Positions 20,754-62,491 of a stretch of 64,000 bases of DNA are shown here, one piece after another. The notes below the pieces were generated by a model. It saw nothing but the letters and a program-made list of their open reading frames with translations, was not told where the DNA came from and did no database searches. The position numbers and the translations under genes were made by a program. The stretch lies in NCBI GenBank assembly GCA_012862575.1, contig BLSF01000027.1, positions 124,001-188,000 on the forward strand. Direction: 5' to 3'. Origin of the DNA: Parietichytrium sp. I65-24A (lineage: Eukaryota; Sar; Bigyra; Thraustochytrida; Thraustochytriidae). How positions within the stretch are numbered: the stretch's first letter is position 1; each line of letters opens with the position of its first letter.

Positions 20754-21023
20754 TGCGGCGCCTGCAAAGCTCACGTTTCGTGCTTGCTTGCTTGCCTGCC
20801 TGCCTGTCACCGAGACTTCAGACACGTTCACACTCACTCATCTGCTCTTCTCACTTTTGCACTCTTCTTAACTTGCACTTTTCCCACTCACACATCAAAT
20901 CAGCCGTTCCAAAGTGTGTACGCCCCAACGTGTCCACTTTGGAGGTCCTAGTGTTTAGTCTGACCACTATTAAGGACGTCGCACTTTTCGAGCCGTCGCT
21001 GATTATTATTATTATTATTCCTT

Positions 21024-21061
21024 TTGCAAGCAAAATTTGCAAGCAAAATTTGCAAGCAAAA
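21024..21061. repeat. 13-bp direct repeat, three copies
   Basis: Three consecutive copies of GCAAGCAAAATTT (the last one diverging at its end) directly follow an (ATT)n run. Confidence 0.9.
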
Positions 21062-22218: not shown

Positions 22219-22248
22219 GAAACGAAAGAAACGAAAGAAACGAAAGAA
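22219..22248. repeat. (AAACGAAAG)n repeat
   Basis: Three tandem 9-base units lie in a purine-rich, apparently non-coding strand. Confidence 0.85.
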
Positions 22249-23575: not shown

Positions 23576-24343
23576 ATGGAATACCATCGAGCTCTTTCGC
23601 TCATGCTCCGGGTGCTGCAGAGCGCCGGGGCTGATTCACAGGCGCAGAGCAGTGAAGGGGAGAATGGCAAGGCGAGGACGTCAAGTTCTGGAGGAGCTCC
23701 TGTATTTGGGATCGTCATGGCCCTCTTTGGGATCTTTGTCTTCGCCGGAATGGCTTATCTGTGGTACGCCACCAAGTCTGATCGATCAAGAAGGCGTTCA
23801 AATCGCACCCTGGGGAAAGGAGGGTCTGAGCATCGATTTGACACGAGTAATAGTGTCACGGTGTTCTCCTCTTCAAATTTGATGCGAGACGAGATACCGA
23901 TGGCGTCACCTGCGCATCCGTCAACGGTGACCGTGGCAATGGTGCAGGCTGTAAATGTTTCGCCTCGATTTGATAGGTTGGCCACCACGCCGCCCGGCTC
24001 TGCGTCGCCTAGGAAGCAGAACTTTGCCTCAACGAGTAACAGTCCGGACATGCCGGCACGGAGAAGGGAGGAACGCAGCAATGCTGCATCACCCAATTTG
24101 CGCGGTGTCGCAAAGTCTCCTGTCCCTCCGCCGTCGTGGGTCGCACTTGGTAAACCCCCACCAAGCCCCACATTTTCAAAACCGGCTGCCCCGCAAAGGC
24201 ATTCACTCACAATGGCGAAAAACCCTTTATTCTCTGGTTCTAAATCGGCAGCAGCTGCTGACCCGCTAGCCAATCGTCCAAGAGGATTTGATGCGGCCGT
24301 TCTTCCCGGGATGGATATCAAGCGCTTGTCTCAGATTATATAG
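23576..24343 (+). CDS. Single-pass membrane protein with protease-cluster-type tail
   Basis: The product is 255 residues from an ATG. Only about 43 residues precede one strong transmembrane helix (FGIVMALFGIFVFAGMAYLW), followed by a basic stop-transfer patch (RSRRRSNR) and a 180-residue Ser/Pro/Ala-rich tail. No enzyme domain is present. The last residues, DIKRLSQII, closely resemble the ends of the neighbouring trypsin-fold membrane proteins (PKRISAII, TKRISHIV, ENISDMI). The tail also has the PLAN element found near the end of the 24850-25947 protein. This looks like a family member that lost, or never had, its ectodomain. Function is unknown; an adaptor or decoy for whatever binds the shared tail is one possibility. 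Confidence 0.7.
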   Translation: MEYHRALSLMLRVLQSAGADSQAQSSEGENGKARTSSSGGAPVFGIVMALFGIFVFAGMAYLWYATKSDRSRRRSNRTLGKGGSEHRFDTSNSVTVFSSSNLMRDEIPMASPAHPSTVTVAMVQAVNVSPRFDRLATTPPGSASPRKQNFASTSNSPDMPARRREERSNAASPNLRGVAKSPVPPPSWVALGKPPPSPTFSKPAAPQRHSLTMAKNPLFSGSKSAAAADPLANRPRGFDAAVLPGMDIKRLSQII

Positions 24344-24849
24344 GTGTGTCTATTGACGTTTGTCGAAAACCCGCTCTGTCTTGTTGGATGGAGTTGCAAC
24401 TGTGTACCTCCTTCCCTGTCTATTATTAGAGTATGAAAATCAACGGTACTGAATGCTTGTCCCTCTTCCTCATTGTCCTCTTGTCAAGGAGCTTCGTCAA
24501 CAGTTCAACCATATTTCTCATGCAATCCACAAACACGCTTTGTAAGACACCCAGAGTTCGGGGCGGGCCGTTAGAACAGTCGACAAGTTGAATGTTGGCT
24601 CATCGCTCTCAGCATACGTGTCGCCTGTTTATCTCTAGTAGCCGTACTTCCCCTTTCTTAGATTCAAAAGTCGAACAAAATCTGTATCACTGCCACACCA
24701 AATATCACCAAATACTCGTTCGTTAATGTTCATTTGAATTGGTCTTCAATCAAGGAATACTTCTTTTAAAATAAAAATGGTCGGCAAATCCAACGACATT
24801 GCCAACACAAGATTGCAAGCCTAGAATATGATGGTACAGGTCTGTGTGT
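24344..24849. other. Convergent 3' region
   Basis: About 500 bases between two converging stops. No gene or notable repeat was seen; it probably holds 3' untranslated regions and poly(A) sites. Confidence 0.5.
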
Positions 24850-25947
24850 TTAAATAATTGCAGAGATGCGCTTTGGTATGAGAGTGCGAGTAAATGATTT
24901 TCCAGGGTTGGCAAGAGGAGTTGGCCCGACGCCAGAGGGAGGGTCCTTTGATTCTGGGAATGATATCCTTGATGTCGGGGCATTGGAGTAAAGTGCCGCC
25001 TCGTTGCGGTGCTTCATCTTGCTAACAAACATCCCCGAGCCGACCACAAGTACAGCAACGCCAAGTCCAATCCCTGCGAGAGCGCCTGCGGGTAGTACTG
25101 AACTTTCTGTTCCATCATCTTGCGCACTATTATCTGTGTCACTTCCACTGCCGGTACCACTTCCGTCGCCGGTTCCGTCATCGCCACCAGTGTCGCCTCC
25201 AGTATCGCCACCCGTGCCGTCACCATCGCCATCGCCATCGCCGTTGTCATTGTCATCACCTGTTCCTTCGCCATTGCCTGGCGCAACATAGTTGTAGACG
25301 TTTACAGAGGTTTCAGACCTCTGCAAAAGGGTGATGAGATCCTCGCCGGACAGCACGGAGGCTCTGTACGACTCGTCTCCACAGGTCGCCCTACTCACAA
25401 TGCCAACCACTGCAGTCACAGTCCCGAGTTTAGCGTCCTGAAACGATGCATAAATTGGAGCTCCCCCATTCTCAATGTCGCAATTGGGCTGGTTGTCGTC
25501 CTCGTTCGCGTACTCAATGCACGGCTGCGAGGTTCCGCTGGGGCATTTATCACCAAATGTCACAGGAAATGATTCGCCTTGTATCTGCAGCGTGGCCTTC
25601 GTGCCGAGTTCCAGAGTCGTGTTCGCGACTAGAGTCCGTACCGCCGTGGCGGGAATGTCTTGAAGGGTAAATGCACCAAAGTCGTCCGATGAGATACTTT
25701 TTGTTCCTTCGGCCCAGGCTTCTGTCCCTGCTCCTGTGATAGAGAACTGGATTGCACGCAGCTGATTTGCGTTGGATGTGAGAAGACTGCATCTGGAAGA
25801 GGTCACAATGAGGGAGTCGTGCAGCGTTCCCAGACACTCACCTCCCTGTGGCCTTGTCCTCAACATATCACATGATCCCACAATGCTCTGCCCGTGCACA
25901 GCACAGCTGAAGCTGGCCAAAACCGTCAAGCACTTCATGAGCTGCAT
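24850..25947 (-). CDS. Membrane-anchored trypsin-fold pseudoprotease, Asp/Gly-rich stalk
   Basis: The product is 365 residues from an ATG. It has a signal peptide (residues 1-20, MKCLTVLASFSCAVHG core) and a divergent chymotrypsin-fold domain to about 230. The position of the catalytic histidine is Arg52 in IVTSSRCS (family LTAAHC), and the serine loop reads ENGGAP instead of GDSGGP. A following VGIVSRATC fits the strand after the active site. Then come an Asp/Gly-rich stalk, a transmembrane helix (GALAGIGLGVAVLVVGSGMF) and a cytoplasmic tail ending PKRISAII. Hydrolysis is not expected. Fold assignment rests on spacing of these landmarks and cysteines. It could bind peptides, glycans or protease partners outside the cell. 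Confidence 0.7.
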   Translation of the reverse strand: MQLMKCLTVLASFSCAVHGQSIVGSCDMLRTRPQGGECLGTLHDSLIVTSSRCSLLTSNANQLRAIQFSITGAGTEAWAEGTKSISSDDFGAFTLQDIPATAVRTLVANTTLELGTKATLQIQGESFPVTFGDKCPSGTSQPCIEYANEDDNQPNCDIENGGAPIYASFQDAKLGTVTAVVGIVSRATCGDESYRASVLSGEDLITLLQRSETSVNVYNYVAPGNGEGTGDDNDNGDGDGDGDGTGGDTGGDTGGDDGTGDGSGTGSGSDTDNSAQDDGTESSVLPAGALAGIGLGVAVLVVGSGMFVSKMKHRNEAALYSNAPTSRISFPESKDPPSGVGPTPLANPGKSFTRTLIPKRISAII

Positions 25948-28929
25948 CTTTTGTCTTCGCTCTCCTTTCAGTCTTGCCCCGACTTCTTGATTCTTCCTCC
26001 GCAGAGCTGGCTGGCTGTTGCTGGATGATGCGTGATATTTGACGAATGGGGCGGCCGATGGATGGAGCGCTTCGCCCTGCTTCGCACACGTGCCAACCGT
26101 TCAGTCCACTCCTCCCCTCGAAGACAGCACAGGGGGCACACGTTTAGCGGCACAATGTGGGTTCACAAAGATTGGGAATTTGCTCTCACGGGTCCGGGCC
26201 AGACAGTGCCAGACAGTGCCAGATAGTGCCAGACAGTGCCAGATAGTGCCAGATAGTGCCAGACTTGCCAGACGACCAACTGCACTGCGTGTCCATGCAC
26301 AGCCGTGAACAGGCACACTGAGCACCAGAGAGCACAGTCAGAGCTACAGTCAGAGCTACGTGCGCTGCAAGAGTCTTTGCTCTCGAAGGATCTCAAAGGG
26401 GTTCAGGTTGGAAGCCCATGACCATGCATCCTGTACTGATCCGGTACTCACTCAGTACCTGTACTCTCAGTCAGCTGCCCTCGTTGGGGTGTTGGCTTGT
26501 AGCTCTCAACTACTCTTCCCTCGCTCCTTCAGCGCTTAGCTGCTCGTTGCACGTGGCAAAGGACCTGTTCAGGTCAAGCTATCTCAACGATAGGCCTAAG
26601 TTATCTCGCAATCCGAGCCTCTCTAAAGCGTGGAAGTCACTGTTGGGATACATTTTTATCGTGGCCGTCAACAGTGCCCGAGCCACTCAAGAGTCTCAGA
26701 GATCTCAGAGTCAAGGAGCTGCACTGCTAGCATTAGCACCTGGGTGCCGCCGAAATCACGAGCGTTTTCCGTCGTGTGGCCGCCTCCGAGTGTGCCACCA
26801 CTCGGCTCTCTCACTGTTGGCTTGCCTGCTGCCGTGAAGCAATTTACAAGATGGGAAGTCTTCAGGGTTGAATTCGAGACTGCCATGCAAAAGACGCGCA
26901 TTGCGGCGACTTTCGCGCCGCTTTGCCTCACTCTTCTCTATCTACGCTTATCCCGCCAGCTGGTCCCAGCACCCATGATGTCTTGGGCATTTGCAGTCAC
27001 GGCTTGGAGTGTGCAAACTTCTCCAAAAAGCATGTTGCAAAATGATGGCAGCAGCAATATTGGCTCCCTACCCACCTCGTTTGGCGCAGCTTCGAGTTCA
27101 ATAAAACCATTGAACAATTGACCCATTGAACCATTGACAGTGCACGTCATTATCTTTACAACAGCCATTCCAAGTTACAAGCTTTCGCAAGACTATGTGT
27201 ATGTGTGTGCGTGCATGTGCACGCAAGATCGACCTGCAGGGAGCTTGCAGGTTTGAATCATTCACATGTAGGATGGTATATTCGCTGTGCGTTCTGAGCC
27301 ATAAAACCCATCTTTTCTGAAGACAAAGCTTGCGATAGCGATAATCCCCAGATTTCAATCAAAGGTTTTTATGAAGGAAGAACAAGTTATAAAATTGAAT
27401 GTGCACAATAATGAATGTGCACAATATTTGGCGTGCGCCACTATTTCTAATATTTCTTTCCCCACCACAGCGATACACGATTCCTTTAACAGCTAGCCTC
27501 AGCCAGACACCCATTAGAAACCGGACCGAGCCGCATGGAGCAAGACTTTCCCCGCGAATTAATTCCAGGAATACACGTTTATTCTTAGCGATTATACGCG
27601 AATTCTTTTGTTCGATATTGTTCGTTCTTTCTTTCTCGCACTGACAAATCAAATTAACTGTAAAGTAACGTTAGTTAGTCACACACACGTCTCACACACA
27701 TCACACACTTCCTTTTGAGCATTTTGAGCGATGGAATAGATGGAATCGATGGAATGAGTGCGAGAAGATGAGCATTGGCGCCTGAACGAACGCAAGCAAA
27801 GCAATAAAAAAAAGCAAGCCCTCCGGCCGCATCTCAAGTGTGGAGTCCGGATGGAAGAGACTGGTTCGCTGTTGTTGTTGGCGTCGCTCGAGCGGTGGTG
27901 CCACATTTGCGCCATTTGCTACGATGACCACAAAAGCGAACTTGTCCATACTTGTCCCCAGCTATCATTGCTCTGATCGCTCTTGTGGACCTCAGTAAGC
28001 ACCAGAAACTGGCGAGGGCGATGCGTTTCGCCACGTTTCGCCCCCCACCATGGTCGCCTCAAGTCTCGCGGTGGACTTTTGACCATAACCTTGTCAAGTC
28101 TCACAGTCAGTCCAACATTTAGCCGCCTTCGACCACTCAGCTCCGCCTGTCGTCAAAGCCGTGCCGCGTCTTGGCCGCAGCGCGCTGCCAATCTCGACTA
28201 CCCTTGCCATGATTCATTGATTCATTGTATTCATATGTATTCATATGTATTCATTGCGCCAATCGTCAAAGTTCACGGCACTTTTTTGTATGGTGGTACA
28301 CAACGCACTCGTAGCGTGGGTTGCAGCGCGTCTACTGTCGACAGTCTATTGTCTGTTGTCTGTTGTCTATTATTGTTGTCTGGAGAATACAGACTACGGC
28401 GTACCTCCCCCCTGGCGTAGCCCTCGGCGTAGAGAACGACGTGTAAACATCGTCAGCTTTTAATCGATTAAACTTAGCCCAGTGCAGCGCAGTGTGCGGC
28501 GGCCCGTACTGTCTACTGTCTACTGTCTGTCACTTCGAACATTCAGAGGAGATGCTCTGACCGCGTTCAGGGCAGTGTATTCATCCGTGCTCGAAGTCAC
28601 TTGCCACGCTCGCCACACTTGCCACGCTTGCTAAGCTTGCCAGGAGTCGCTCTCTCTCTCCGTGTGCCAGTGGCAGTGGAACGTGTACGTGGCAGTGGTG
28701 GCAGTGCAGTTGCGTCTCTTGCGCAGCCTGCCCAGCTTGCCCAATTTGACAAGGCAGCTTGGGCTGCGCTTCGTCCGAGTAGCTCGCAAAGATCGTGTGG
28801 GCCGTGGAGTTAAGGAGAGGTATCTCGCCAAGTTGGAGCTTTGGCCTGGCAGCCGAGCGGCGGCGGTGGCTGCGGTGGTGGTGGTGGGTTGTGGGTTGTG
28901 GGACGTAGCTTCCGCGCGAGACGTCGATC
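25948..28929. other. Gene-poor stretch between two pseudoprotease genes
   Basis: About 3 kb between divergent genes with no recognisable coding sequence. A decamer tandem array (26201) and several short repeats (near 28227 and 28326) are present. Short frames around 26630-27170 on both strands look weakly protein-like but match no family known to me. Confidence 0.45.
26201..26260. repeat. Six-copy decamer tandem repeat
   Basis: Six exact-length copies of AGAYAGTGCC (third pyrimidine C or T) lie back to back. There are no spacers, so it is a minisatellite and not a CRISPR array. Confidence 0.95.
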
Positions 28930-30408
28930 ATGCAATCGCGAGTCAGAAGACGGCCTGGAGAGCAGGCTCGGTGGCTTTCGCTGGCGCTCTTGGTCCTGGC
29001 CGCGCGCGCTGACCGGGATGTGGGTCAGGTTTTAAGGTCAGAATCGCAAGATTTCGAAAGAGATTGGCGGGGGTGTGTGGTACAGGTTGTATCGGAACTC
29101 ACCAGCGAAGTTTTGTGTTCTGGTGTGCGCATCAGCAACGACGTGGTAGTGACAAGAATGGGTTGCGCTGCGCCAGAGGTCTCTTCCGAAGCGGAAAGCG
29201 ACGCGATTGAATTACGAAAGGCGGATCGCATGGCGGATGGTGTCTCCGCGGTCTGCGATGTTGCAGCAGATCTTCACAGCGGACTAGAGGTGGAGGTCAT
29301 TGCGTGGAAAGGCGATTTAGGGAGTCCGTATGTACCTTATTCGCTGTACTCTGCAAACACCTATCACAGCAACGGACTCTTCTCTATATATTTTGACGGC
29401 TTTGGGGAGGAAGTCTCCACTCCTGAGAGAGAAGAGGGCTGTTTGGACCTCTTTGGCGCCCCAGTATTTGCACATCAGGCTGCTAACGCCTCTACTTTGG
29501 TTGGTATAATTCACAAATGGGACTGCACTGCTCGCGTCGCACTCCTGAGGCCGATACACCATGCCTTTCGGGATCTTTCTTCGTTCCGGGACTCTTTGAT
29601 AAATATAACCCTATCTCCATCGCCCTCGGCGTCCCCAACAGAGTTTCCCACTTTTCAGCCAACCAGAATGTGGACACGTACTCCGCGACCGACACCAGCA
29701 CCATCGAATGCACCATCGAATGCACCATCGAGTGCACCATCGAGTGCACCATCGAGTGCACCATCGAATGCGCCATCCAGGGCACCAACAGTTTTACCGA
29801 CAAATGTACGGACAATGGCCCCAACGGCACCACCAACGGCCCGTCCGACGGCACAACCGCAGACCTTGACACCGACACTCCCATCTCCCACAAGGACTCC
29901 AGCACCTACCTCATTCCCGTCGAGATCGCCAATAAGGTCATACTATCCTTCTTTGCCTTCTCAAACCGAAGCTCCCACGGCCTCAACTGAGAGCGTGATG
30001 AGCACCGGCACTTACGCGTTGATTGGGTTGGGCGTCGGCTGCGCTGGCTTGGTATTTCTGGGGTTGGTGATTGTACTCTATGGCAGATCGACGCTCTTTC
30101 CTTCGCAGTCTAAAAGATCTGGTGCGATACCAGTCGCAGTACCTTTCTATGGTGATACGGATAGTGGTGGTGCCTCGCCTGCGGTGTCAAGCAGTCCCAA
30201 ACGGGGCGGGGGTGATGAGTCGCTCCCAGAGGCGATGGTTCTTGAACAAGAATCGGCGCCCGCAAACAGGCAGATTAGGCCACCAGTATCTCTTGCCTCA
30301 CGGGCGGGGAATCCACGGAGGCTCTCGGCGTTGCTCGATAGTGCATCGAGGAACTCTGCAAGGACTGGTCCGCAGATGCTGGACGAAAACATCTCTGACA
30401 TGATCTAA
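28930..30408 (+). CDS. Membrane-anchored trypsin-fold pseudoprotease, Ser/Pro/Thr stalk
   Basis: The product is 492 residues from an ATG. After a basic n-region a signal peptide (WLSLALLVLAARA) leads into a degenerate S1-type domain to about 225. The histidine position is Gly78 in VVTRMGC and the serine loop reads LFGAP where active enzymes have DSGGP. A Ser/Pro/Thr stalk follows, with six APSN/APSS tetrapeptides and PT-x-x-PT units. One transmembrane helix (YALIGLGVGCAGLVFLGLVI) precedes the cytoplasmic tail. The tail contains RQIRPPVSLASRAG, shared with the neighbouring gene at 32448, and ends ENISDMI. The next gene lies on the same strand 2 kb on. A non-catalytic surface receptor or adhesin-like role is inferred, not shown. 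Confidence 0.7.
   Translation: MQSRVRRRPGEQARWLSLALLVLAARADRDVGQVLRSESQDFERDWRGCVVQVVSELTSEVLCSGVRISNDVVVTRMGCAAPEVSSEAESDAIELRKADRMADGVSAVCDVAADLHSGLEVEVIAWKGDLGSPYVPYSLYSANTYHSNGLFSIYFDGFGEEVSTPEREEGCLDLFGAPVFAHQAANASTLVGIIHKWDCTARVALLRPIHHAFRDLSSFRDSLINITLSPSPSASPTEFPTFQPTRMWTRTPRPTPAPSNAPSNAPSSAPSSAPSSAPSNAPSRAPTVLPTNVRTMAPTAPPTARPTAQPQTLTPTLPSPTRTPAPTSFPSRSPIRSYYPSLPSQTEAPTASTESVMSTGTYALIGLGVGCAGLVFLGLVIVLYGRSTLFPSQSKRSGAIPVAVPFYGDTDSGGASPAVSSSPKRGGGDESLPEAMVLEQESAPANRQIRPPVSLASRAGNPRRLSALLDSASRNSARTGPQMLDENISDMI
29701..29772. repeat. 12-bp in-frame repeat coding the stalk
   Basis: Six 12-base units of the type GCACCATCGAAT encode APSN/APSS tetrapeptides in the stalk of the pseudoprotease. 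Copies differ mostly at one position (A/G), suggesting recent expansion. Confidence 0.88.
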
Positions 30409-32447
30409 TTTTGAGTGGGCCTCGAGGAGCGAATACGTTTCTTGCGCATTCACATTTGACAAGCCCCGCCGCTCGCCTCAGGTATTTCGCGCCAGATGTT
30501 TATTTTAAAAATCAGAAAGTAAGAAACGAAAACTGGAATGGAATCGAACATATCCCCGGTCCACTCTTGGATCGCACGTTACGAAGCAAATGAAAGTCGA
30601 GAGAAAAAGAAGAACTACCAAAGAGAGCAACCTTTCAATTTTTCCTTTTGAGTTTCTAAAAGATTTTTGAGCGGAACATTTTTGACAATCAGAAGATTTG
30701 ACTCTGGTGAACCGACACGTGACAATTGGACTGTGCATTCATGTAAGCGAACCTCGTGCGGCTCTGGCCTGGTTCGCTTCGAAAAAAAAGGAGGAGCCAG
30801 AATGCTTGCGTATTAGATGCAAACGGCATCACGGATTTGAAGCAGCTCAAGTAGCCGCCTCGTGAAAATTAATGAGTCAAGCAGGATTCGCCTTTAGAGC
30901 CTCCATAATCGAGAAGCAGAAGTGAAAATGTCTTCTTGTCATCTCAAGTCATTGCCCGCACGACACTGCACTCTCCATCCAACGAATTATTGCGGCATAC
31001 ACGTATATTCATTTATATTCCAGACGAACAGCGCTTGATTCTCTTGATTCGCGATATTCCCACTCGCTGTTCAACAACATTTTCTTGTTCTATCGCGCGG
31101 AGAGATCGGCAGATATGTGAAAACGAAACAGTGTTCACTCTTACCAGCACTTGGAAACGTGTGAGTGGATAATCCGCCAAGCAAGTCGGCAAAGTCTCGT
31201 GGTCGTACATGCAAGCCAGCGCATGGCGTAGAACTCGAGCGAGGGATTGCCGGACGCCTGCGAGGGATGATCAATCTCCTCACAGCGTCTAGACCCTCGC
31301 ACGGCGACAGAAATCTTGGTATCGCGTCTTGAGAGGCACAGCTCTAACTCTCGCCGACTTGTGAATCAAATACAGCGAGGCAGACAGACAGGCAGAAAGC
31401 GAGCGAGCGAGCGAGAGCGAGAAAGGGTAAGAGAAAAGAGAAAGAGGATGAGTAGCCAGTAGGCGTGTGCAAGGCGTAGTCACTGCAAAATGAGAAATCT
31501 CGCTCATTGCCCAGGCCATCGAAGAATCAAAACCTCAGCATCAAGGACAGCACAAAACCGATGTGTGAAAGGGAAGCAGCAGTGGGCAGCAACCTGGTCT
31601 AGCCAGCTCTTCAGGGTATGAATGAACTTTGACTTGTTTTATGTCAACTTTGCGAGATTTTCGAGAGCAAGTCGAGGACTTGACCAAAGCTACTCTGGCC
31701 CATACTAAGGAGCTCTAAAATCTTTCCTAACAATTCGCATGTGTGCACCGCTGTTGTCAGTTTCATTTCGTAGTCTTACTTACTCTTGTGGTCAAGACAT
31801 GTCAAGACTCCATTCACTATCACAAGTAGCAGTACATTTCGTGAGAAGACTCTGACAATGAATGCTTGACAATGAGACAAAAAATGGGTGCGATGCATTC
31901 GATGCTGAGTTTGTGAAAACTTAATTCATGGTGGAAAGCGTTTCACAGTCAATCAAGATGAGTCGACTGGGAGAACGGAGCACAAGTAACCAGCGCCAGC
32001 TGTCCGGGCCCTTACTTTCGACTCCACGCGCTGCAACTCCTGACGAGTGGAATGCAATGCATGTGCAGAGCAGAATCGAGGTCAGATTGACAAGTGCATC
32101 TCAAGAGGAGGGATTGCCAAAGCTCCCCGTCCCTCGGCAAGTTCACAGTCATCCGGGCGGAGGACTATTGCCAGCTATACATTACTGATAAGAGTGTGTG
32201 TGCGCGCCGGGATAAGGTGGACGTGTTGGAGCGGTGCGAAGATTGGGATCAAATTACTTAACAGTAAATACAGTTTGAAAGAGCAAGGTGGGTGAGGTAG
32301 CTGCGGCAAATCTCCATCTTGCGAATGGCAAGAGAGTGAGAGGCGCCAGATCTGATTCAAGCAAGCGAGGCTCGCAGCGTTTGTTGTTGAGTCGGCGAGG
32401 CAGACGTGGAGAGAAGCAGAGAGAGAGAGAGAGAGAGAGAGGAAGCG
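30409..32447. other. Region between two co-directional pseudoprotease genes
   Basis: About 2 kb. No coding frame is convincing. It holds GAGC repeats near 31404 and ends with a GA run in the leader of the next gene. Confidence 0.5.
32418..32442. repeat. (GA)n run in 5' leader
   Basis: An uninterrupted GA run lies 6 bases before the ATG of the downstream pseudoprotease. It is open in the same frame and would encode Arg-Glu repeats, but has no ATG of its own. Confidence 0.92.
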
Positions 32448-34022
32448 ATGCGCTGGGCAGCTGTGTTCGCTGCTGGCGTAGCGAGCGCCGCCGCGAAGAC
32501 ACGGGTAGCTGCTAGCTCAGATCGGGACCTCCTCGCTTATGCCAGCGATGTAAATTCTGATCCAGATTATGTTGTCGGGCTTTACTCGAATAAGCCAAAC
32601 GGCGACTTCTTTTGCTCTGCGACACTCATTTCGCCGACACATGTGCTTGCGAGCGTAGGTTGCGGAGAGATCAATGGCGACCAGCTTTACGCGGACGTTG
32701 GAAGCTCGGGGTCCATCGCTGTGATCTCCAAAGCAATCGATCCAAACAATCAGCTCGCCATTTACACTCTATACCAAGCGGTCGACAACGATGTATTACA
32801 GGTTATGGAAACTTCTCCATGCTCGATCTCGGGTACAGATATATATGCAGTTGGGTGGGCGACCACCGGTACTCCAGCGTGGGGCAGCATGGGGAATCTC
32901 AAGTACCAGAAAATAAGCAGTGATGAATATGAGTGCCTCGACGGGACTTTGAACATTGACGTACCTGCAATTTTGTCCGCCTCGTCGGAATGCGTTGGAG
33001 ATGTGGGAGGCCCCATCATCATGCTTGTGGGTAGCGAGCGAAGGTTGGTGGGCGTTATACCACCAAACACCGAGTGCGGAGGAGTTTACGGATATTCCAT
33101 CGATGCCCCTGCGATGACGAGCTATGCAGACTTTCTGTCTCCTTATTTGCCAACTTCCGCTCCGACTGAATCGCCGACATCCCCTACCAAAAAGCCGACC
33201 GAAAGTCCAACCAAGCAACCCACGAGTAAACCAACGAAAACCCCAACCAAGCAACCCACGAGTAAACCAACGAAAAATCCCACGCAAGAGCCAACGACGG
33301 CGAGCCCAACCCGTTTTCCAACGCGCGCTCCAACGACGGCGAATCCAACCCGCTCTCCGACCTCCTTTCCAACGTGGAAACCCACCAAAACTCCCACCGA
33401 GGAACCAACCCGCATTCCCACCGAGAAACCAACCCGCGCTCCTACATCGGCGATAACCGACAAGCCGACGGCCAATTCGCCGTCATCGTCTCCGACAGCC
33501 ACGCCTACTCGACTCTTCGCCGGCGACTCTTACGCTCCAACCATGAGCCCCACGCCAACCACCCCAGCAGGAGCCGAAATTCCAAGCGCGTCGCCCACGC
33601 TTTCTACCGACAGCCTCGACTCGGATGGTGCCGGTGACAATGACAGCGACAGCGACAATGCCGGCGTTGCATACGGAGTCGGGCTCGGCGTGACTGGCGC
33701 GGTTCTCGCCGCAGCATTCGCCTTTATCGTGCTTCGCTCGAGGCAGAGCACGCGCGGGGCCAATAACTGGACGGCCATGGGTTCCGAGCACGACTCTGAC
33801 GCCAGCGGCGTTGGAGCCCCGCCGTTCGCGGCTTCCAATAGCAACCCGACCTCGGCAGGGCCGGCTCCAGTGGCGCAAGCTATGGGCTCTGGAGCCCGCC
33901 AGATTCGGCCGCCGCAGACACTGGCTGCCCGCGCCGGTCTGCCGCCGTCAGCAACGCCGCCGCCTAGCAACAAGGCCACGCTGCCAATCATGTTTACCAA
34001 ACGAATCTCGCACATTGTGTGA
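32448..34022 (+). CDS. Membrane-anchored trypsin-fold pseudoprotease, Pro/Thr/Lys stalk
   Basis: The product is 524 residues. I chose the ATG at 32448 because a signal peptide starts there (MRWAAVFAAGVASAAA). The S1-type domain is clear but dead: FFCSATLISPTHVLASVGC has Gly71 where the catalytic His should be, NQLAIY replaces NDIALL at the Asp, and GDVGGP has Val186 in place of the nucleophilic Ser. Residues about 235-365 form a stalk of KPT/SPT-type repeats, like PTxxPT stalks of other algal and stramenopile surface proteins. A transmembrane helix (GVGLGVTGAVLAAAFAFIVL) follows. The cytoplasmic tail carries RQIRPPQTLAARAG and ends TKRISHIV. All three catalytic residues are replaced within otherwise well-kept motifs, which argues for purposeful loss. 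The stop lies 446 bases before the lipase start. Confidence 0.82.
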   Translation: MRWAAVFAAGVASAAAKTRVAASSDRDLLAYASDVNSDPDYVVGLYSNKPNGDFFCSATLISPTHVLASVGCGEINGDQLYADVGSSGSIAVISKAIDPNNQLAIYTLYQAVDNDVLQVMETSPCSISGTDIYAVGWATTGTPAWGSMGNLKYQKISSDEYECLDGTLNIDVPAILSASSECVGDVGGPIIMLVGSERRLVGVIPPNTECGGVYGYSIDAPAMTSYADFLSPYLPTSAPTESPTSPTKKPTESPTKQPTSKPTKTPTKQPTSKPTKNPTQEPTTASPTRFPTRAPTTANPTRSPTSFPTWKPTKTPTEEPTRIPTEKPTRAPTSAITDKPTANSPSSSPTATPTRLFAGDSYAPTMSPTPTTPAGAEIPSASPTLSTDSLDSDGAGDNDSDSDNAGVAYGVGLGVTGAVLAAAFAFIVLRSRQSTRGANNWTAMGSEHDSDASGVGAPPFAASNSNPTSAGPAPVAQAMGSGARQIRPPQTLAARAGLPPSATPPPSNKATLPIMFTKRISHIV

Positions 34023-44650: not shown

Positions 44651-46564
44651 TCAATAGTCGTACTTGGGGTTTTGAGAAGAGATTTGTGGGTTTGCCCAGT
44701 TCTGTTGTTGCCCGGCGACCATTTCTTGATTGTAGTTTTGGTTCGTCTTCCTCGATTGCGATCTCTTGTACATTGCGAATCCCAAGACGCCCAGAACCAC
44801 AGCACCTCCAGCGATGAGAGCAGGAACCATGATCGAGGACCCAGAGCTGGCATCACTGTCGTCGGATGCGCTCGACACGGTAATGCCCGTCCCCGTGTAG
44901 GTGAAGGTGAATGTCATTGAGTCCGATGAAGCGGAGAAATTGCTAAGCGATATTAGAGAAGGTTGGCCCATCTTTGCGTAAGTGTTGATGTTTTGGAGAG
45001 GGAGCAAGTTGTCGCCAACGACGACATCGTTGTATGGAAGCCAATCGCCCGCATCAGACGTGAAATAGGTGGAACTCTCTAAATCAAACTTGTTGTCTGG
45101 CTGGACCATGCGCACGCGAGGATGTGTGCTCGCCCAAGTCGCTGGCTCTGCTGACAGAAACTCATTTTCGTTCGTCTCCATAGCAAGATCGACATGGAAG
45201 ATTAGGATTCCACCCTGTAGAAGCGCGTCGTTGTCCTTGCTTTGGCGATTCTCGATCAAGAAGAACTCGGTCTCGCTCAGCGTGATCTTGGCAACCGTAG
45301 GGGTGACGTGCACATCAGGCAAAGTAACCGTTCTACTATTGGCCTTTGACACATCAAGCTCTTCCACATCCACCCAGCCCAAGAGATACTTCGCAGCTGC
45401 ACTCATGCTTGGAGGGTAGTTTTGCGTCTGGTCAATTCCCCAGGAATTGGCCATTAAACAGTATTCTCCGAGGCCCCAGCTGCTTTCGTCAATGTCATAG
45501 TAGTCAATGAGGCCGAGAAAGTGTCCCATCTCGTGCGCAATAACCCCAAAATGGCCAATCTCAATGGAATTTGGGCTTTTGTAATTGTACCAACGACCAG
45601 GGTTGACATTGTAGTCGTAGAATTTGAGTCCAGAGAGCGGGGAGATGTAGTCAGGGCAAACCCAATTGCCTTTTGTCACTTCAACGCATGAATCCGCGGT
45701 GAGAATGTACTTGTGCGACCAGATTTTATCCGTAAATGTTTCTGAATCAAATTCTGCGCTGAATCCAGAATGGACGACAGTAAGCATGTCCACATAGCCG
45801 TCACCATTGAGATCAAACTTGCTCTTAAATTCTTCCGCCCCAATCTCCTTTTCGTAAGCCTCGATACCTTCGATGATCGCGTTGCGAAGCATGGTCTTGT
45901 TATCTGGGTCATACATTCCATAACTGCACTCGTATACGTTTCCTTCGTAATAGCAAGGGCCCGCTGCCTCCGACTCACTATAGCTCACCTTGATCCAATC
46001 GCTGAGCACATTGTTCAGCGTCAACCTGCCCGAGGAGATTTTTGTATAGAACTGCTTGATACTCTGAGTGATCACGACGGTCCCGTCCGGCGAGCCCTCA
46101 CTGTTAAAGAGCAACTCGAAGTCAGACACGGGCTTGACCATGGCATCGGTGTGGTCGGAGAACTGAATCATGATAACCATGTTGTTGATGTTCGAAAGAA
46201 CATCATATGGGACACTGGTCGTGGCCGAGGTTCCGCGCAGTGCTTGGTTGGAGGTCTTTTCAGCCTTGCTAATTCCTGAAGGAACAGACCTCTTCATGCT
46301 GGAGGTCGCAGACCCATCCTTCGGCGCTCTACTCGAGCAAGTGAGCTGCTCCTGAGTACAAACACCATCGACGATGAAATAATAGTCTTCGTCTCTCTTG
46401 CACAATTTTTGCTTTTCTGGGCTAATGTAGGAGACACCAGAAAAGGGATCACCAACTTTTACCAAGGTGTCGTTGCAGGCCCCGGTCACGTAAGAGCGGG
46501 GAAGTGGAATGGCCTCGGTAGTCAGAAGGCCGCCGAGAGCGGCTATTGCAAATGTGACTTTCAT
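44651..46564 (-). CDS. Membrane-anchored M6-family metalloprotease (immune inhibitor A-like)
   Basis: The product is 637 residues from an ATG. It has a signal peptide (residues 1-18), a Cys-containing prodomain and an M6 catalytic domain. The zinc site is HEMGHFLGLID at 344-354, with H344, H348 and D354 as ligands and E345 as the base, followed by a conserved LMANSWG turn. An EF-hand-like calcium loop DLNGDGYVDML lies at 251-261, as in other M6 enzymes. A beta-rich domain follows. A transmembrane helix near 577-598 (VPALIAGGAVVLGVLGFAMY) and a 39-residue Gln/Asn-rich tail end the protein. M6 enzymes are secreted endopeptidases; this one appears tethered at the surface or in the secretory path. 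Confidence 0.88.
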   Translation of the reverse strand: MKVTFAIAALGGLLTTEAIPLPRSYVTGACNDTLVKVGDPFSGVSYISPEKQKLCKRDEDYYFIVDGVCTQEQLTCSSRAPKDGSATSSMKRSVPSGISKAEKTSNQALRGTSATTSVPYDVLSNINNMVIMIQFSDHTDAMVKPVSDFELLFNSEGSPDGTVVITQSIKQFYTKISSGRLTLNNVLSDWIKVSYSESEAAGPCYYEGNVYECSYGMYDPDNKTMLRNAIIEGIEAYEKEIGAEEFKSKFDLNGDGYVDMLTVVHSGFSAEFDSETFTDKIWSHKYILTADSCVEVTKGNWVCPDYISPLSGLKFYDYNVNPGRWYNYKSPNSIEIGHFGVIAHEMGHFLGLIDYYDIDESSWGLGEYCLMANSWGIDQTQNYPPSMSAAAKYLLGWVDVEELDVSKANSRTVTLPDVHVTPTVAKITLSETEFFLIENRQSKDNDALLQGGILIFHVDLAMETNENEFLSAEPATWASTHPRVRMVQPDNKFDLESSTYFTSDAGDWLPYNDVVVGDNLLPLQNINTYAKMGQPSLISLSNFSASSDSMTFTFTYTGTGITVSSASDDSDASSGSSIMVPALIAGGAVVLGVLGFAMYKRSQSRKTNQNYNQEMVAGQQQNWANPQISSQNPKYDY

Positions 46565-49191: not shown

Positions 49192-50619
49192 TCAACGGCT
49201 GTCAAGCTTGAATTCGGTGAGGTCATAGCATGTTGCAAACTCTGCGCCGAGCATGTTACTGATGCCCACTGTCACCACCAGGCAAACCGTGCGAAACTCA
49301 CGCCAAACAAGCTCGCTCATTCTGGCGCTGGGCGGAACGCGATACAAGTACCCTTTTGCCACATCTGAGAAGGTCTCGCAAACAAATGCGAGCGCAAGTC
49401 GCCAGAGAATCTCGTCTACATCCCTATGAACCCCAAATGCAAGTGCTGCCCCAACGTAGAGACCTCTTTTTTCCCCAATCATTTCGCCCAGAACAAGCTG
49501 ATTCCAAATCTCGTCTTGTCTGAGGAAGGTGTCGGCTTTGTTTTTGGTTGGGCTCGCCTGTCCGACGGCAGCATTGTCACCATCGTCAGCATTGTCACCA
49601 TCGTCAGCATTGTCGTCAGACACGTCTAAAATGCTGGACACGGGGGCGACATTGGTGACATCTTTCACGGGGACTGCGACAGATTTCATGCAGCAGTATG
49701 CAGAGGCCCAAAGTGTCTCAATGACACACTGCAGCAAGGTGGTGTAAGTAAAAACCCAGTCGTCTTTCGTCAAAAACAGTATGACAAAGCCAGGAAGAGC
49801 ATAGTTCCCGACGAGGGCTTCATTCACAATTATCATTTTTCTCACCGACCCTTTCGAACCCTTTGTAATTTTCAAATGCCGCTGAGTACGTCGCATGGAA
49901 ATGGCGAACAGTGGATAGAGAAGCCCTACAAGGGCAACCTGCATGAACGCTGAAATAGCTTGGCTTGTTGAGAGAACCATGAAGACTACCAGGAGGCAAA
50001 AATTTAAAATCCAGAGAACCGTGTTGACAAGGGACCGCGGGATGAAGCGAAGCTTGAATTTGGTCTTGTGTTGGACCAACTTCTCCAACAAAATACAAAC
50101 CCAAGAACTCATCCCGAGAATAAGAATGGCCAAAAATGGGTGCATATAACCTTGGGAAGATAAGGCCAAGAACAACCCGATGTGAACCGAGATGCGAACG
50201 ATCAGCAGCGGAAATTTTGAATATACCTTGTCGTGCAGTAGGACGGCCACTTCCGCCGTGGTGGTCGATATGGAAGCGCACAGTGCGACGTCCCAGCCGC
50301 GGAACACGCCTTCGTAGCCGGGATTGGAAAAGCCATCACACGTGTCTTCGAGCGACGTTCCGTTGACGTATTGCCAGAATTGGTTTTCATTGAATGCCCA
50401 GAGCTCCAAAAAGAAGAAATACGCCCCGAATATAATGGTCAAAAGCACGCAAGGTAATATCGGCTTGAACGCGAGCCAGGAAAGATGACTTTGTTGCCCT
50501 AGAATTCGCGTGAGCACGGCTCCTGCGACCCCAATTCGAGACTCCGTCAGAGCACGTCGCAAAGATGCGGGGCGGCTAAGTAGTTGCCGACCGCTCTCGA
50601 CCCCATATTTCCTGGCCAT
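49192..50619 (-). CDS. Polytopic membrane protein of unknown family
   Basis: The product is 475 residues from an ATG. I do not recognise the family. About ten hydrophobic helices are visible, the first at about 48-75 (LPCVLLTIIFGAYFFFLELW) and others around 110-330. After the eighth helix comes an acidic cytosolic-type loop with DDGDNADDGDN repeats from an 18-base in-frame repeat (49570-49618). Two more helices follow near the end. The N-terminus is basic without a cleavable signal, which favours a cytosolic N-terminus. A helix reading WDVALCASISTTTAEVAVLLH has charged residues and could line a pore or site. No transporter signature was found. Confidence 0.75.
   Translation of the reverse strand: MARKYGVESGRQLLSRPASLRRALTESRIGVAGAVLTRILGQQSHLSWLAFKPILPCVLLTIIFGAYFFFLELWAFNENQFWQYVNGTSLEDTCDGFSNPGYEGVFRGWDVALCASISTTTAEVAVLLHDKVYSKFPLLIVRISVHIGLFLALSSQGYMHPFLAILILGMSSWVCILLEKLVQHKTKFKLRFIPRSLVNTVLWILNFCLLVVFMVLSTSQAISAFMQVALVGLLYPLFAISMRRTQRHLKITKGSKGSVRKMIIVNEALVGNYALPGFVILFLTKDDWVFTYTTLLQCVIETLWASAYCCMKSVAVPVKDVTNVAPVSSILDVSDDNADDGDNADDGDNAAVGQASPTKNKADTFLRQDEIWNQLVLGEMIGEKRGLYVGAALAFGVHRDVDEILWRLALAFVCETFSDVAKGYLYRVPPSARMSELVWREFRTVCLVVTVGISNMLGAEFATCYDLTEFKLDSR
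49570..49618. repeat. 18-bp in-frame repeat
   Basis: Nearly three copies of an 18-base unit (built on GTCAGCATTGTCACCATC) encode the acidic D-N-A-D-D-G repeat in a loop of the polytopic membrane protein. Confidence 0.88.
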
Positions 50620-58687: not shown

Positions 58688-61600
58688 CTAAACGGAGGTC
58701 TCCATGTTGGTGAACACCTGATCGCAGAAGACGCACTTCTTATGGAACAATTCGTCACAGCTGCTGCCATACGTGGTGGTGGTAAAATCAGCGGTCTGGG
58801 CTTCGTACAATGTGACTCCAAAGGACTCGGAAAAGTCCATCTCGCCACCCTGAGCTTGAAAGCAGCTTGAAACCTCGTCCGAAGAGAGTGGAAAGAAAAC
58901 GTCTCCTTCCAGCCGTTTCACCAAGCCCGCGTCAACTTGCGGCTGAATGGAACCAAAAGCGCCGCACTTGGCACATCCTCGATCGTACTCGGCAACCATT
59001 TTCGCGATTGCAGCCTTGATGCGAGGGCTGCCTTGCTCAAAAACGAAGACCCAGCCCCCCTCGCTACTGGAGGAGACAGCTTCGCCCCAGGACAGAGGCA
59101 AAGGTTTCTGGATGTGAGTGTCGAGACGCATGCTGACACCTCCATACTCGTACAAGGCGACCATTGCTCCAAGCATTTCTGATTCCTGTGTCCAAGATTC
59201 GCTGCTTGTGTCGATACGAGCAAAAAGCGTGTCCACTTTGCTGGCATTGACGACTGACGTGAGTCTGTTAAGCTGCGACTCAAGATCGAGTGATTTAAGC
59301 CGCAAGTCGTAACCGACCTCGTTGAAGATGTCGAGCTCCCCAAGGCTCTCGTCACCTTGCGTACTGTGCAAGTATACCACGGCATGCGAATGGGAATAAA
59401 AGACTTGCTCAATGGCTCTCTTGGCGCGCCAAGACAGATCCTCTAGCCTATCGTTGACGATAAAGTGAAACGTTGATTGAACGGAGCGATCCTGTGTAGT
59501 GTGAAGTTTGCTGAATGGAACCATCCCGTAGAGTCTTGCACTTTCGCGGTACAACGGGTTCATTCTTGAAATTATGTTCCAAAACGAAGCTCTCAAGCGA
59601 TCTGCGAATTCAGCCCCTGGATTTGGAGCTGGGTTGTCTAGGTCCACTGGGAAGGCCTCCAATGAGTTGGGCATCCACTTGTGGAACAGCCCAGAATTTG
59701 ACGAGTCGTCTGCCAAGTTCTCCTCGGTAATCATCAAAACTACCGGGATGCCTTGTCCGAGGGCAGGAAGTGCGATGTCCATTTGTGACGTTACGACAAG
59801 CTTTGCGTCCAACGAGATCTTGCGGATCAACTCAAAAGCCACCTCAAAAGCACGGGCATTGTTTGTGGCGCCATTCTTGGTAACAGTCAAGCTCGTACTC
59901 AATGTGGTGAACACCCCGATCTCTTGAAGCTTCTGCGGAAGAACACTCATGTCCACTCCAGCATCAACCACATAAACCTTTGTCTTCTGATTGTTGAACT
60001 CCGCGCCACGATAGCCGAAATCAATCATGCTCGTCAAGCAGCCAGAATAGAACGACTTGACTCCGAGTGCTTGCAAGGTAGACAGCGTCAGGTAGTCTCT
60101 GGCACCTACAGCTCCGACGTTAGAATTGTAGAATTCCTTGAGGTAATCGGGGTTGTTCCTCACAGTTGCCATTCCGGCTCGCTTAAACTGCACGGAGGTC
60201 ATTGTGGCGGACAGCTCTTTGTTCGGTGGCCACTTGAACTTTTGATGCCACATGGCGTTGGCAATGATATTGCCTTTCGCACTTGGAAGCTCCTCGTCCC
60301 TGTCGATCAATGTGCTAATGTATGGCGCAAATTGCGTGCTGGCGAAGTCCTGGATGTGCTCAGCGGTGTTGAACATCTTGGAGAAGAGCCTCGCGCTTTG
60401 TGTGTAAAATTTAAACGCCAAAAACTTCTCGGGAAACTCCGGCCGTCGAAAGGTAAGAAGCGGCAGAGGGAACTCAGGTTCACGTTGGGTTGGATCGTAT
60501 TTGTCCGCTCCCGCAACGCCTTCAAGACTGCAATGCAGAGTCGAATCTCCAAGCTCCCGGACGCAGCTGTCTGAATGCTTTTCTAAGACCATGAGCATGG
60601 TTGCTGCCTGCAGGTGACGGATGTATTCCCCCTTATGAACTATCTTGTAATACATGTGAGACCTCACGAATTCCTCAAACCTGGTTCCTTTGGCCACTGC
60701 TTTCAGGTTGATCATCTCCACCGCCGCTGTCTCAATGGAGTTGTAACACGACGAATAAGCGCATAAAACCTGTTCGTTTCCGCATAATTTTGCATTTTTG
60801 AGTGGGAAGGGAGACATCCAGATGACGTACGTTGTCTTGCTGGAACTTGCTGAGCAGTCAAGAATCTCGTCTGACAGGGTAGAGACTGTCCCGCCAGAAA
60901 AGTCATTTGAATCATTGGCGCTGTCACCCTTGTTTCCCTTTCCTGGCTTGCGCCTCTGCCTCCTTCGCCGACGTTGGCCAGAGCCAGATCCCTTATTTCC
61001 ACTTTCGGTCGAAACCTCCTCTGGAATGGGGTCTTGAACGATATCGGAGGGCACCTCCTCTTCCACTTGCGTTTGAAAGTTGTCACCGTAGTCTTGAGCG
61101 GTATCAGAGGACGAGTCGTCGAGAGCGTCCTGCTCATCATTGAGCTCGGCGGACGAAGCATCGTCCACGTCAGACTCGATGTCCTTTTCGATGGACTCAC
61201 TGTCTAAGTCCTGAGGCGAAGTGCTTTCGTTATCAGAACCAACGTCCCCAGTTACAACGCTGAATTCGTGTCCATACTCGTCTGAAGGTGCGTTGCCACT
61301 AAAATCTTCTTCGCTGATCGGCGTCGTAGGAGAGTTGAACTTCTCAGCGTAGCTCGAGATCACTTTCATCGCCTTTTCTTTGTGTGGAGCAGCAGTGAAA
61401 ACCAAATGCATGACCAAAAGAAACATGGCTAGGAATCGAACAACACGGGTGTGCCGCCCATGTACGTTCACGGCAACTCCGATAGTTCCAACAATTGCAA
61501 AGACCATAAGGATTTGAGCGAGAACAACCATCGTTTCACTCAGAAAAATGGCCGCAGAGACGGTTGCGACGGCAAGGTATTTCTGAAGTTTCAGAGTGTT

Positions 61601-62491
61601 GAATGTCTCAAAGCTGACGGAGCCAAGCAGGAACATGACAAGCATGTTCGAGACACCAAAGAACGTCGTCGCAAAGAAGAGGTTGCGACTAATGCTGAGA
61701 GCAGAGAAATCGAGAATGTGAGGGTAGAAAGGAGCAGCGACGAGTTGAAAAAACCCACCCAATATGCTCGCTGCCGTGGTGCTTGCAACGAAAATTGGGA
61801 ATAGCCCAGCGTTTTCTCCGAGCTCTTCCCGCTTTCGGAACACCTCGATTTCAACAATCATGGAACCAGCTGCAATCGCAGAACTCGCAGCGGCCATTAT
61901 GGCCCCGGAACCACCCCCCATCAGGAGTCCTGCACAAAAAGCAGTAATGCCAACCAAAAGTATGGCCGGAGAGAGGATGTTCTGGCCAATCAGAAAGAAT
62001 ACCCCAACAGCCGCCAGGAGAGGCTCCATCGCACCAATCGATGCGGTCATGGACACGGTGCTCAGCGCCAAGGAAGCGTTAAACAGAAGCAACGAGAAGA
62101 ATTGAGCGACGCCGATGTGCCAAATCCTTCTCGACTTGAGCAACCGAATGGTTGTGGTCTGGCCGTAGCCAAAAAATCGGCTCATGTGCGCATCATAGGA
62201 GAGAGGACTGGATCCGTTCACGAAAATGACGACTCTGACAAACAATACTACGCAACTCAGCTCTCCAAGCGTCAGAAGGGCCACTGCAGCCAGTGTATTA
62301 TCGCTCCTTTTCAAAGCAAGTTCGCTCTGCGATGCATAGACCCCTTCGGCTGTCCACCATAGCAGCACCAGCAGCGCCAGAGACTTGTTCACGCCACTTA
62401 TCTCATCATCGCCCTCATCTTTCAGGTCATCCGCCACACGCACGAATTCTTCTAGGTCGCGCGTATCGACGCGCTTGTATTTACCTGCCAT
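58688..62491 (-). CDS. Fusion: DMT-type transporter + polysaccharide pyruvyltransferase-like + GT32-like glycosyltransferase
   Basis: From the first in-frame ATG the single frame encodes 1267 residues. Module 1 (about 30-370) has about ten membrane helices with the TPT/nucleotide-sugar-transporter pattern MTASIGAMEPLLAAVGVFFL. A 160-residue acidic linker follows, with a short basic patch (RRRRRQRRKPGKGNKG). Module 2 (about 640-1000) matches polysaccharide pyruvyltransferases: NIIANAMWHQKFKWPPN, GARDYLTLSTLQALGVKSFY then SGCLTSM, and the late LVVTSQMDIALPALGQGIPV. Module 3 (about 1045-1200) resembles GT32/Gly_transf_sug domains: LGAMVALYEYGGVSMRLDTH and IQKPLPL. The first Asp of the usual DXD is Arg. 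The chain would join Golgi import of a donor with pyruvylation and glycosyl transfer in cell-wall or exopolysaccharide synthesis. Which modules are active is unknown. Confidence 0.82.
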   Translation of the reverse strand: MAGKYKRVDTRDLEEFVRVADDLKDEGDDEISGVNKSLALLVLLWWTAEGVYASQSELALKRSDNTLAAVALLTLGELSCVVLFVRVVIFVNGSSPLSYDAHMSRFFGYGQTTTIRLLKSRRIWHIGVAQFFSLLLFNASLALSTVSMTASIGAMEPLLAAVGVFFLIGQNILSPAILLVGITAFCAGLLMGGGSGAIMAAASSAIAAGSMIVEIEVFRKREELGENAGLFPIFVASTTAASILGGFFQLVAAPFYPHILDFSALSISRNLFFATTFFGVSNMLVMFLLGSVSFETFNTLKLQKYLAVATVSAAIFLSETMVVLAQILMVFAIVGTIGVAVNVHGRHTRVVRFLAMFLLVMHLVFTAAPHKEKAMKVISSYAEKFNSPTTPISEEDFSGNAPSDEYGHEFSVVTGDVGSDNESTSPQDLDSESIEKDIESDVDDASSAELNDEQDALDDSSSDTAQDYGDNFQTQVEEEVPSDIVQDPIPEEVSTESGNKGSGSGQRRRRRQRRKPGKGNKGDSANDSNDFSGGTVSTLSDEILDCSASSSKTTYVIWMSPFPLKNAKLCGNEQVLCAYSSCYNSIETAAVEMINLKAVAKGTRFEEFVRSHMYYKIVHKGEYIRHLQAATMLMVLEKHSDSCVRELGDSTLHCSLEGVAGADKYDPTQREPEFPLPLLTFRRPEFPEKFLAFKFYTQSARLFSKMFNTAEHIQDFASTQFAPYISTLIDRDEELPSAKGNIIANAMWHQKFKWPPNKELSATMTSVQFKRAGMATVRNNPDYLKEFYNSNVGAVGARDYLTLSTLQALGVKSFYSGCLTSMIDFGYRGAEFNNQKTKVYVVDAGVDMSVLPQKLQEIGVFTTLSTSLTVTKNGATNNARAFEVAFELIRKISLDAKLVVTSQMDIALPALGQGIPVVLMITEENLADDSSNSGLFHKWMPNSLEAFPVDLDNPAPNPGAEFADRLRASFWNIISRMNPLYRESARLYGMVPFSKLHTTQDRSVQSTFHFIVNDRLEDLSWRAKRAIEQVFYSHSHAVVYLHSTQGDESLGELDIFNEVGYDLRLKSLDLESQLNRLTSVVNASKVDTLFARIDTSSESWTQESEMLGAMVALYEYGGVSMRLDTHIQKPLPLSWGEAVSSSSEGGWVFVFEQGSPRIKAAIAKMVAEYDRGCAKCGAFGSIQPQVDAGLVKRLEGDVFFPLSSDEVSSCFQAQGGEMDFSESFGVTLYEAQTADFTTTTYGSSCDELFHKKCVFCDQVFTNMETSV

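Follow-up and report, generated by a model that had tools for sequence, protein, structure and literature searches.

A transporter-like membrane part, a pyruvyltransferase-like module and a GT32-like module in one chain: three tandem paralogues in a thraustochytrid, one of them a probable pseudoenzyme

Golgi carriers and transferases are, to our knowledge, normally separate proteins, and coupling between them is hard to demonstrate. In Schizosaccharomyces pombe, Pvg1p works at the Golgi membrane, with phosphoenolpyruvate (PEP) supplied via the separate transporters Pet1p and Pet2p (PMC4872226; PMC6801904). A second point of reference is PBCV-1 A064R, a multidomain viral glycosyltransferase whose domain 2, missed by prediction, proved to be a rhamnosyltransferase (PMC9614988). 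Here we describe a gene of the thraustochytrid Parietichytrium sp. I65-24A, located in a stretch of 64,000 nucleotides which we call the window (contig BLSF01000027.1; G000:C27:124001-188000 in our numbering, from an assembly of 42.5 Mb in 172 contigs). This gene, P0001 or the window copy, encodes a transporter-type membrane part, a polysaccharide pyruvyltransferase-like (PPT-like) module and a GT32-like module, and unlike Pvg1p with Pet1p and Pet2p, which are separate proteins, it carries all three in one chain.

The single chain of transporter, PPT-like and GT32-like modules is present three times in the genome. We give an even chance to the reading that P0001 and the two paralogues in tandem with it make up a eukaryotic family of membrane-embedded proteins that modify polysaccharides, in which a carrier would feed lumenal enzymes, P0001 itself being a pseudoenzyme.

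One reading frame, three tandem copies

Counted from the first in-frame ATG, the frame of P0001 runs uninterrupted through 1267 codons; an upstream extension to 62635 would begin with GTG and holds no earlier ATG. The features of the chain (window positions) and its two paralogues (contig positions, C27) are as follows.

58688-62491, minus strand: complete open reading frame (ORF) of P0001, which starts at its first in-frame ATG (62491), encodes 1267 aa before the stop codon and shows coding signal throughout
61469-62383, minus strand: membrane part resembling DMT/TPT carriers, covering approximately residues 37-341 and helices 1-10 of an 11-helix partition, placed by hhalign against nine TPT proteins and by hydrophobic segments
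61388-61444, minus strand: extra hydrophobic helix, candidate 11th, residues 350-368, which would place the enzymes across the membrane
60839-61387, minus strand: low-complexity linker, acidic then basic, residues 369-551, much longer than that of P0003
60398-60838, minus strand: conserved stretch of unknown family ahead of the PPT-like part, with Cys 570, 577, 582, 643 and 654 invariant in the three paralogues
59705-60397, minus strand: PPT-like core, residues 699-929, seen when P0001 is aligned to its two paralogues and to bacterial proteins
60359-60370, minus strand: altered NxGD motif, N-T-A-E, residues 708-711
59777-59788, minus strand: altered RxH motif, S-Q-M-D, residues 902-905
58691-59494, minus strand: C-terminal GT32-like (Gly_transf_sug) module, approximately residues 1000-1267
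59120-59128, minus strand: DXD-equivalent R-L-D, residues 1122-1124 (E-Q-D in P0002, E-L-D in P0003)
C27:188443-192150, minus strand: P0002, 1236 aa, same module layout
C27:194245-197709, plus strand: P0003, 1155 aa, same module layout

Codon preference, scored with nine other genes of the window as the training set, was above zero in 21 of 21 overlapping blocks of P0001, linker included, and exceeded both alternative frames in every block. P0002 and P0003 were likewise positive and highest in frame in all blocks; the weakest block, at residue 421 of P0003, scored 0.02 against 0.00. When the genome was searched with the whole of P0001, only the protein itself and two neighbours were returned, the matches lying at C27:188443-190680 (minus strand, P0002, 38% identity over residues 523-1263 of P0001) and C27:195505-197700 (plus strand, P0003, 36% over residues 544-1263). 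Overall, P0002 is 32% and P0003 29% identical to P0001. Both are located just beyond the window edge, in tandem with P0001, and present membrane part, linker, PPT-like and GT32-like module in the same order; three ORFs as divergent as these would not share a layout by chance. A preliminary description of this DNA had proposed a single uninterrupted frame with three modules in this order. Both proposals are borne out, the former by the 1267-codon ORF, the coding signal across the linker and two like paralogues, and the latter is strengthened by the presence of the paralogues outside the window.

The copies have not diverged evenly. P0002 and P0003 are 46% identical in the PPT region and 27% in their membrane halves, which are in turn 25% and 19% identical to that of P0001. 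Nevertheless, a profile of the two paralogues' membrane halves matches that of P0001 at 86% along the N-terminal 147 columns, and because these halves are alike, the comparison suggests that the fusion is older than the duplications.

Signatures of the enzyme modules

Taken alone, P0001 finds nothing over cut-off in Pfam, NCBIfam or PHROGs: it is unmatched by PS_pyruv_trans (PF04230) at E up to 1, and reaches only 13 bits with Gly_transf_sug (PF04488), against a cut-off of 23 (E 0.17). Genome searches with the same profiles, which may miss weak or split matches, return two loci only for PS_pyruv_trans, P0002 and P0003, both over cut-off and both passing by hmmscan too; as this search overlooks P0001, other divergent PPT copies could be overlooked as well. 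For Gly_transf_sug there are ten loci, both paralogues among them at 29.1 and 26 bits (cut-off 23), and by hmmscan P0003 passes at 24.8 with P0002 just under 23 at 21.8. The preliminary description had named TPT/EamA, PS_pyruv_trans and Gly_transf_sug as the profiles by which to check its proposal, and failure on two of the three modules as the result that would speak against it. The window copy alone fails all three, whereas the latter two pass in the paralogues, and it is because the paralogues match that the assignment survives.

The PPT core of P0001 clusters with those of P0002 and P0003 with a support of 1.000, and aligns with a protein of Sphingobium at 25% (E 7e-10, single comparison). 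Sequence searches of the PDB gave no match for P0003, P0004 (a fourth neighbour, introduced below) or the PPT profile. For the C-terminal part, a profile built from the three copies scores 69% with bacterial Caps_synth and 49% with the GT32 set of this genome, the single parts remaining below 10% with that GT32 set (6% for P0001, which reaches 3% with Caps_synth). Of two control comparisons, the one with the PPT part gave 0.1% and the one between the GT32 set and Caps_synth 97%.

The PPT motifs were read from an alignment of 30 cores, comprising the three copies, six annotated bacterial pyruvyltransferases (E. coli WcaK and five taken from 20 plasmid records matching it), five bacterial loci with a Caps_synth fusion and sixteen of the twenty matches of a phylum scan, both groups being described below; a loop Lys/Arg column, misaligned in the references, was left out of the motif counts. 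All 29 other sequences have the G of NxGD, where P0001 has A, and the D, found in 27 of 29, is E in P0001 as in one of the two exceptions. Similarly, the H of RxH (29/29) is replaced by D and the R (18/29) by Q. In the RD motif P0001 keeps the R, which again all 29 others share. P0002 and P0003 read NTGD and RIH. In five columns 28 or more of the 29 agree; P0001 departs from two of these five, and each paralogue, when held out, from none of five. The GT32 module tells a similar story: the first acid of its motif is replaced by R in P0001, in which DXD is absent, and the motif of the paralogues is acidic.

Judged by these motifs, P0001 has the weakest claim among the three copies to enzymatic activity and is probably a pseudoenzyme; P0002 and P0003 are likely working enzymes, because they retain the PPT motifs and the acidic GT32 motif. 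Since P0001 retains an open frame and the majority of its other conserved positions, a pseudoenzyme fits better than a pseudogene. The working enzyme of the preliminary description thus finds no support in the window copy, altered as it is in both its PPT-like and GT32-like motifs while its paralogues keep theirs.

Membrane part, topology and proposed mechanism

Neither TPT/EamA nor any other Pfam or NCBIfam family matches the membrane part of P0001, and that of P0002 gives weak, sub-cut-off matches to RhaT and Sugar_transport. In profile-profile comparison with hhalign, whose E-values here refer to single comparisons and not to database searches, the membrane part of P0001 alone matches a set of nine TPT proteins from the same genome (single frames of 328-425 aa) at 86% (E 5e-6), over 54 columns only, and the three-paralogue profile does so at 95% (E 4e-8) over 270 columns. 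Two control membrane proteins of the window, presumed unrelated (the first resembling choline transporters, the second matching no Pfam family), gave 0.1-0.2% against the same set, and the second of them 0.5% against the three-paralogue profile. These comparisons support homology of the membrane part to DMT/TPT carriers.

The fourth neighbour, P0004 (850 aa, C27:198283-200832, minus strand; L005:3284-5833), brings the cluster to about 18 kb. It consists of a TPT-type membrane part, which is over the TPT cut-off, frame neighbours included, and matches the TPT set at 98% by hhalign, and a soluble part without family assignment, for which a second match in the genome was not found at E up to 0.1. 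That this second half might be a further PPT found no support, the profile comparison giving 1.6%.

How many times does the chain cross the membrane? A simple hydrophobicity partition made for this analysis gives 11 as the best helix count for P0002 and P0003, whose last helix falls at the place corresponding to the candidate 11th of P0001 (residues 371-388 and 354-371, respectively), and 9 to 12 for the nine TPT relatives, five of which have 10. Of the "ten-helix DMT-type" transporter in the preliminary description, the DMT kinship agrees with profile-profile comparison; the helix number is more likely 11, there being 11 to 12 hydrophobic segments when the additional last one is counted. The difference matters, as 11 helices would make the enzymes lumenal and 12 would make them cytosolic. 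With 11 helices, lysine and arginine together are more numerous on the N-terminal side in each of the four (13:7 in P0001, 10:6 in P0002, 16:5 in P0003, 17:3 in P0004), which favours a cytosolic position for that side; with 12, P0004 gives 5:15, the N-terminal side not being favoured. In addition, cysteines are invariant across the three soluble parts, for example those at residues 1173, 1176, 1210, 1245, 1253 and 1256 beside the five of the conserved stretch (570, 577, 582, 643 and 654), which would be compatible with an oxidising lumen.

Building on the frame, layout, paralogy and motif loss described above, we infer a donor, a topology, a compartment, fold classes and a partnership as follows. 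The N-terminal DMT/TPT-like carrier would bring a cytosolic donor, PEP or a nucleotide sugar, into the endomembrane lumen; the 11th helix would pass the chain to the lumenal side, where a PPT-like module of GT-B class and a GT32-like module of GT-A class would modify a growing glycan. P0002 and P0003 would do the catalysis, and P0001 would most likely be a carrier or a partner subunit serving these active paralogues. By analogy with a fission-yeast Pvg1p that is fed PEP by Pet1p and Pet2p, a fused carrier and transferase, with a GT32-like enzyme added, would be the simplest reading. We consider a bolder version quite unlikely, namely that one polypeptide imports PEP through an endomembrane and spends it immediately on the glycan that the same chain extends, as a channel from transporter to enzyme in the making of pyruvylated polysaccharide, with a dead P0001 regulating or completing an assembly with the two active copies.

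Several observations weigh against the lumenal pseudoenzyme that we propose. Singly, the membrane parts of P0002 and P0003 match the TPT set weakly, at 6% and 19%. For P0001 itself the best helix count is 12, slightly over 11 (235.1 against 233.4), and with 12 helices its charge ratio is steeper, at 16:4 against 13:7; P0004 also prefers 12 (216.1 against 212.2). Two structure predictions were of low confidence (predicted local distance difference test, pLDDT, 42 and 36). The loss of conserved residues is not confined to P0001 either: where 22 or more of 23 sequences agree (the annotated six left out) it loses 6 of 20 columns, and the held-out paralogues lose 5 of 23 (P0003) and 3 of 23 (P0002) family-conserved columns, none at the signature motifs. 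The decay of P0001 is modest overall, and the case for a pseudoenzyme therefore rests on which residues went. On this point CsaB is instructive, its corresponding histidine being important for the use of PEP: H308A and H308R were inactive, and H308K and H308S were impaired yet active (PMC10435577), so that loss of the histidine is not always fatal. R306 and H308 of CsaB were equated with the RxH columns by spacing and by the aligned annotated bacterial proteins, not by CsaB's own sequence.

Other explanations can be set against the same evidence. The low complexity of the linker would be compatible with two genes misread as one through a missed intron or misassembly; this is very improbable given that an open fusion of this layout occurs at three loci, one with a short linker, and that the coding signal runs through all three linkers. 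Perhaps the membrane part is a mere anchor, a degenerate DMT fold without transport. The membrane halves are indeed more diverged than the enzyme halves: matches of the full-length search to the paralogues are confined to residues 523-1263 and 544-1263, and identity falls to 25/19% with P0001 and, between P0002 and P0003, to 27% as against 46% in the PPT region. However, a DMT-like register persists across 270 columns, and the helix complement is full, where a single helix would suffice for anchoring; we regard a mere anchor as rather unlikely.

As to activity, P0001 could be a working enzyme whose altered motifs serve a different donor, with its intact frame, normal codon preference and 14 of 20 family-conserved columns kept (20/23 in P0002 and 18/23 in P0003 when held out). 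Set against the missing G, D and H of two signature motifs, and the missing first acid of the GT32 motif, this seems improbable. Somewhat less so, yet still doubtful, is the possibility that the PPT-like module is a glycosyltransferase, such that the protein would import a nucleotide sugar and make two sugar transfers. The fold of Pvg1p is GT-B-like (PMC4872226), and hence a sugar donor is possible; in the bacterial Caps_synth-fusion relatives L replaces the R of RxH in five of five, one of them adjoins dTDP-rhamnose genes, and a GT8 fusion occurs in two of seven ORFs scanned of other family members. On the other hand, P0002 and P0003 keep RxH, as do all six annotated pyruvyltransferases.

Organism context and known systems

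The preliminary description held that such a protein suits an alga secreting a complex acidic polysaccharide. This is unsupported, as neither the chlorophyll-binding family PF00504 nor the phycobilisome family PF00502 has a match in the assembly, an absence which is not proof; for PfaD, too, the assembly gave no match over cut-off. Elsewhere in the window, positions 19788-34019 hold four putative secreted or membrane proteins, two of which pass the trypsin model and two of which have proline-threonine-rich stalks; 44654-46564 (minus strand) encodes a protein of peptidase family M6 (immune inhibitor A-like) whose C-terminal region includes a hydrophobic stretch, and 49195-50619 (minus strand) a hydrophobic protein of 475 aa for which Pfam gave no family within E 0.001.

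Are there similar fusions elsewhere in this genome? Outside the cluster, frames of at least 600 aa give four EamA matches and no TPT match, and after all four were inspected none was retained as a similar enzyme fusion: we take them to be one cation-efflux-like fusion and three NIPA-type-like carriers. The first, L016:1908-4604, is a DMT-type frame fused to a histidine-rich cation-efflux-like transporter, a layout that resembles ZnT5/Msc2. The preliminary description knew of no protein with the present order of modules; among the literature titles and abstract openings listed on fused nucleotide-sugar transporters and glycosyltransferases, on pyruvyl transferase fusions and on Porphyridium with pyruvyltransferases, glycosyltransferases or nucleotide sugar transporters, none described this architecture, coverage of subscription journals being thin. 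Viral contig scans and phage searches found no relative.

Relatives of the PPT-like module outside this genome were found in bacteria. A tblastn search with the PPT region of P0003 returned one plasmid record, from Sphingobium (26%, E 1e-5), whose protein has Caps_synth and then PS_pyruv_trans and lies beside rfbA, rfbD and rfbB. Scanning of contigs added four more loci, of which three are complete and again have the glycosyltransferase before the PPT, the fourth ending at a contig edge. All five (L022 and L024-L027) have LxH in place of RxH, and because of this PEP may not be the donor of their PPT-like parts, in spite of what the family is called. In one of them, L027:1742-4006, a cyanobacterial chain consists of Caps_synth, a PPT-like part and a methyltransferase-like part (the last just sub-cut-off), a layout that recalls the viral A064R. 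A scan of 386 genomes from the phylum of the Tildeniella locus gave 20 matches in 18 genomes; PS_pyruv_trans passed in all seven of the ORFs scanned, with GT8 ahead of the PPT in two, and no DMT family was found in these seven. Nor was a transporter family found in the four complete Caps_synth-fusion proteins. By their domain matches, the joining of a PPT-like and a glycosyltransferase domain is a recurrent one in bacteria, and that relatives join both families in reverse order suggests that the two work in sequence. Among the sequences examined, the added carrier and the PPT-then-glycosyltransferase order occur only here.

A natural one-chain form, in three copies of which one is apparently dead, would allow donor import and use to be tested jointly, and would point to genes that may serve pyruvylation or the building of capsule-like glycans in a protist.

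Placed beside known systems, the chain shares something with each. Its membrane part matches, by profile, the TPT/DMT transporters of its own genome, but the nine aligned lack enzyme modules. Like the bacterial proteins of Sphingobium, Methylocystis, Parvibaculum and Tildeniella, it joins both catalytic families and has a related PPT core, whereas those proteins run from glycosyltransferase to PPT (in four complete cases) with L-x-H instead of R-x-H; the PS_pyruv_trans subfamily of the cyanobacterial phylum, also related in its core, shows NIGD-type and mostly R/K-x-H motifs. With PBCV-1 A064R, it has in common multiple glycan-building activities per chain, though a transporter goes unmentioned in the accessible part of that report. 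Finally, the fission-yeast system, a Golgi pyruvyltransferase (Pvg1p) with dedicated donor transporters (Pet1p and Pet2p), parallels the arrangement that we propose here, with the difference that P0001 lacks the RxH histidine.

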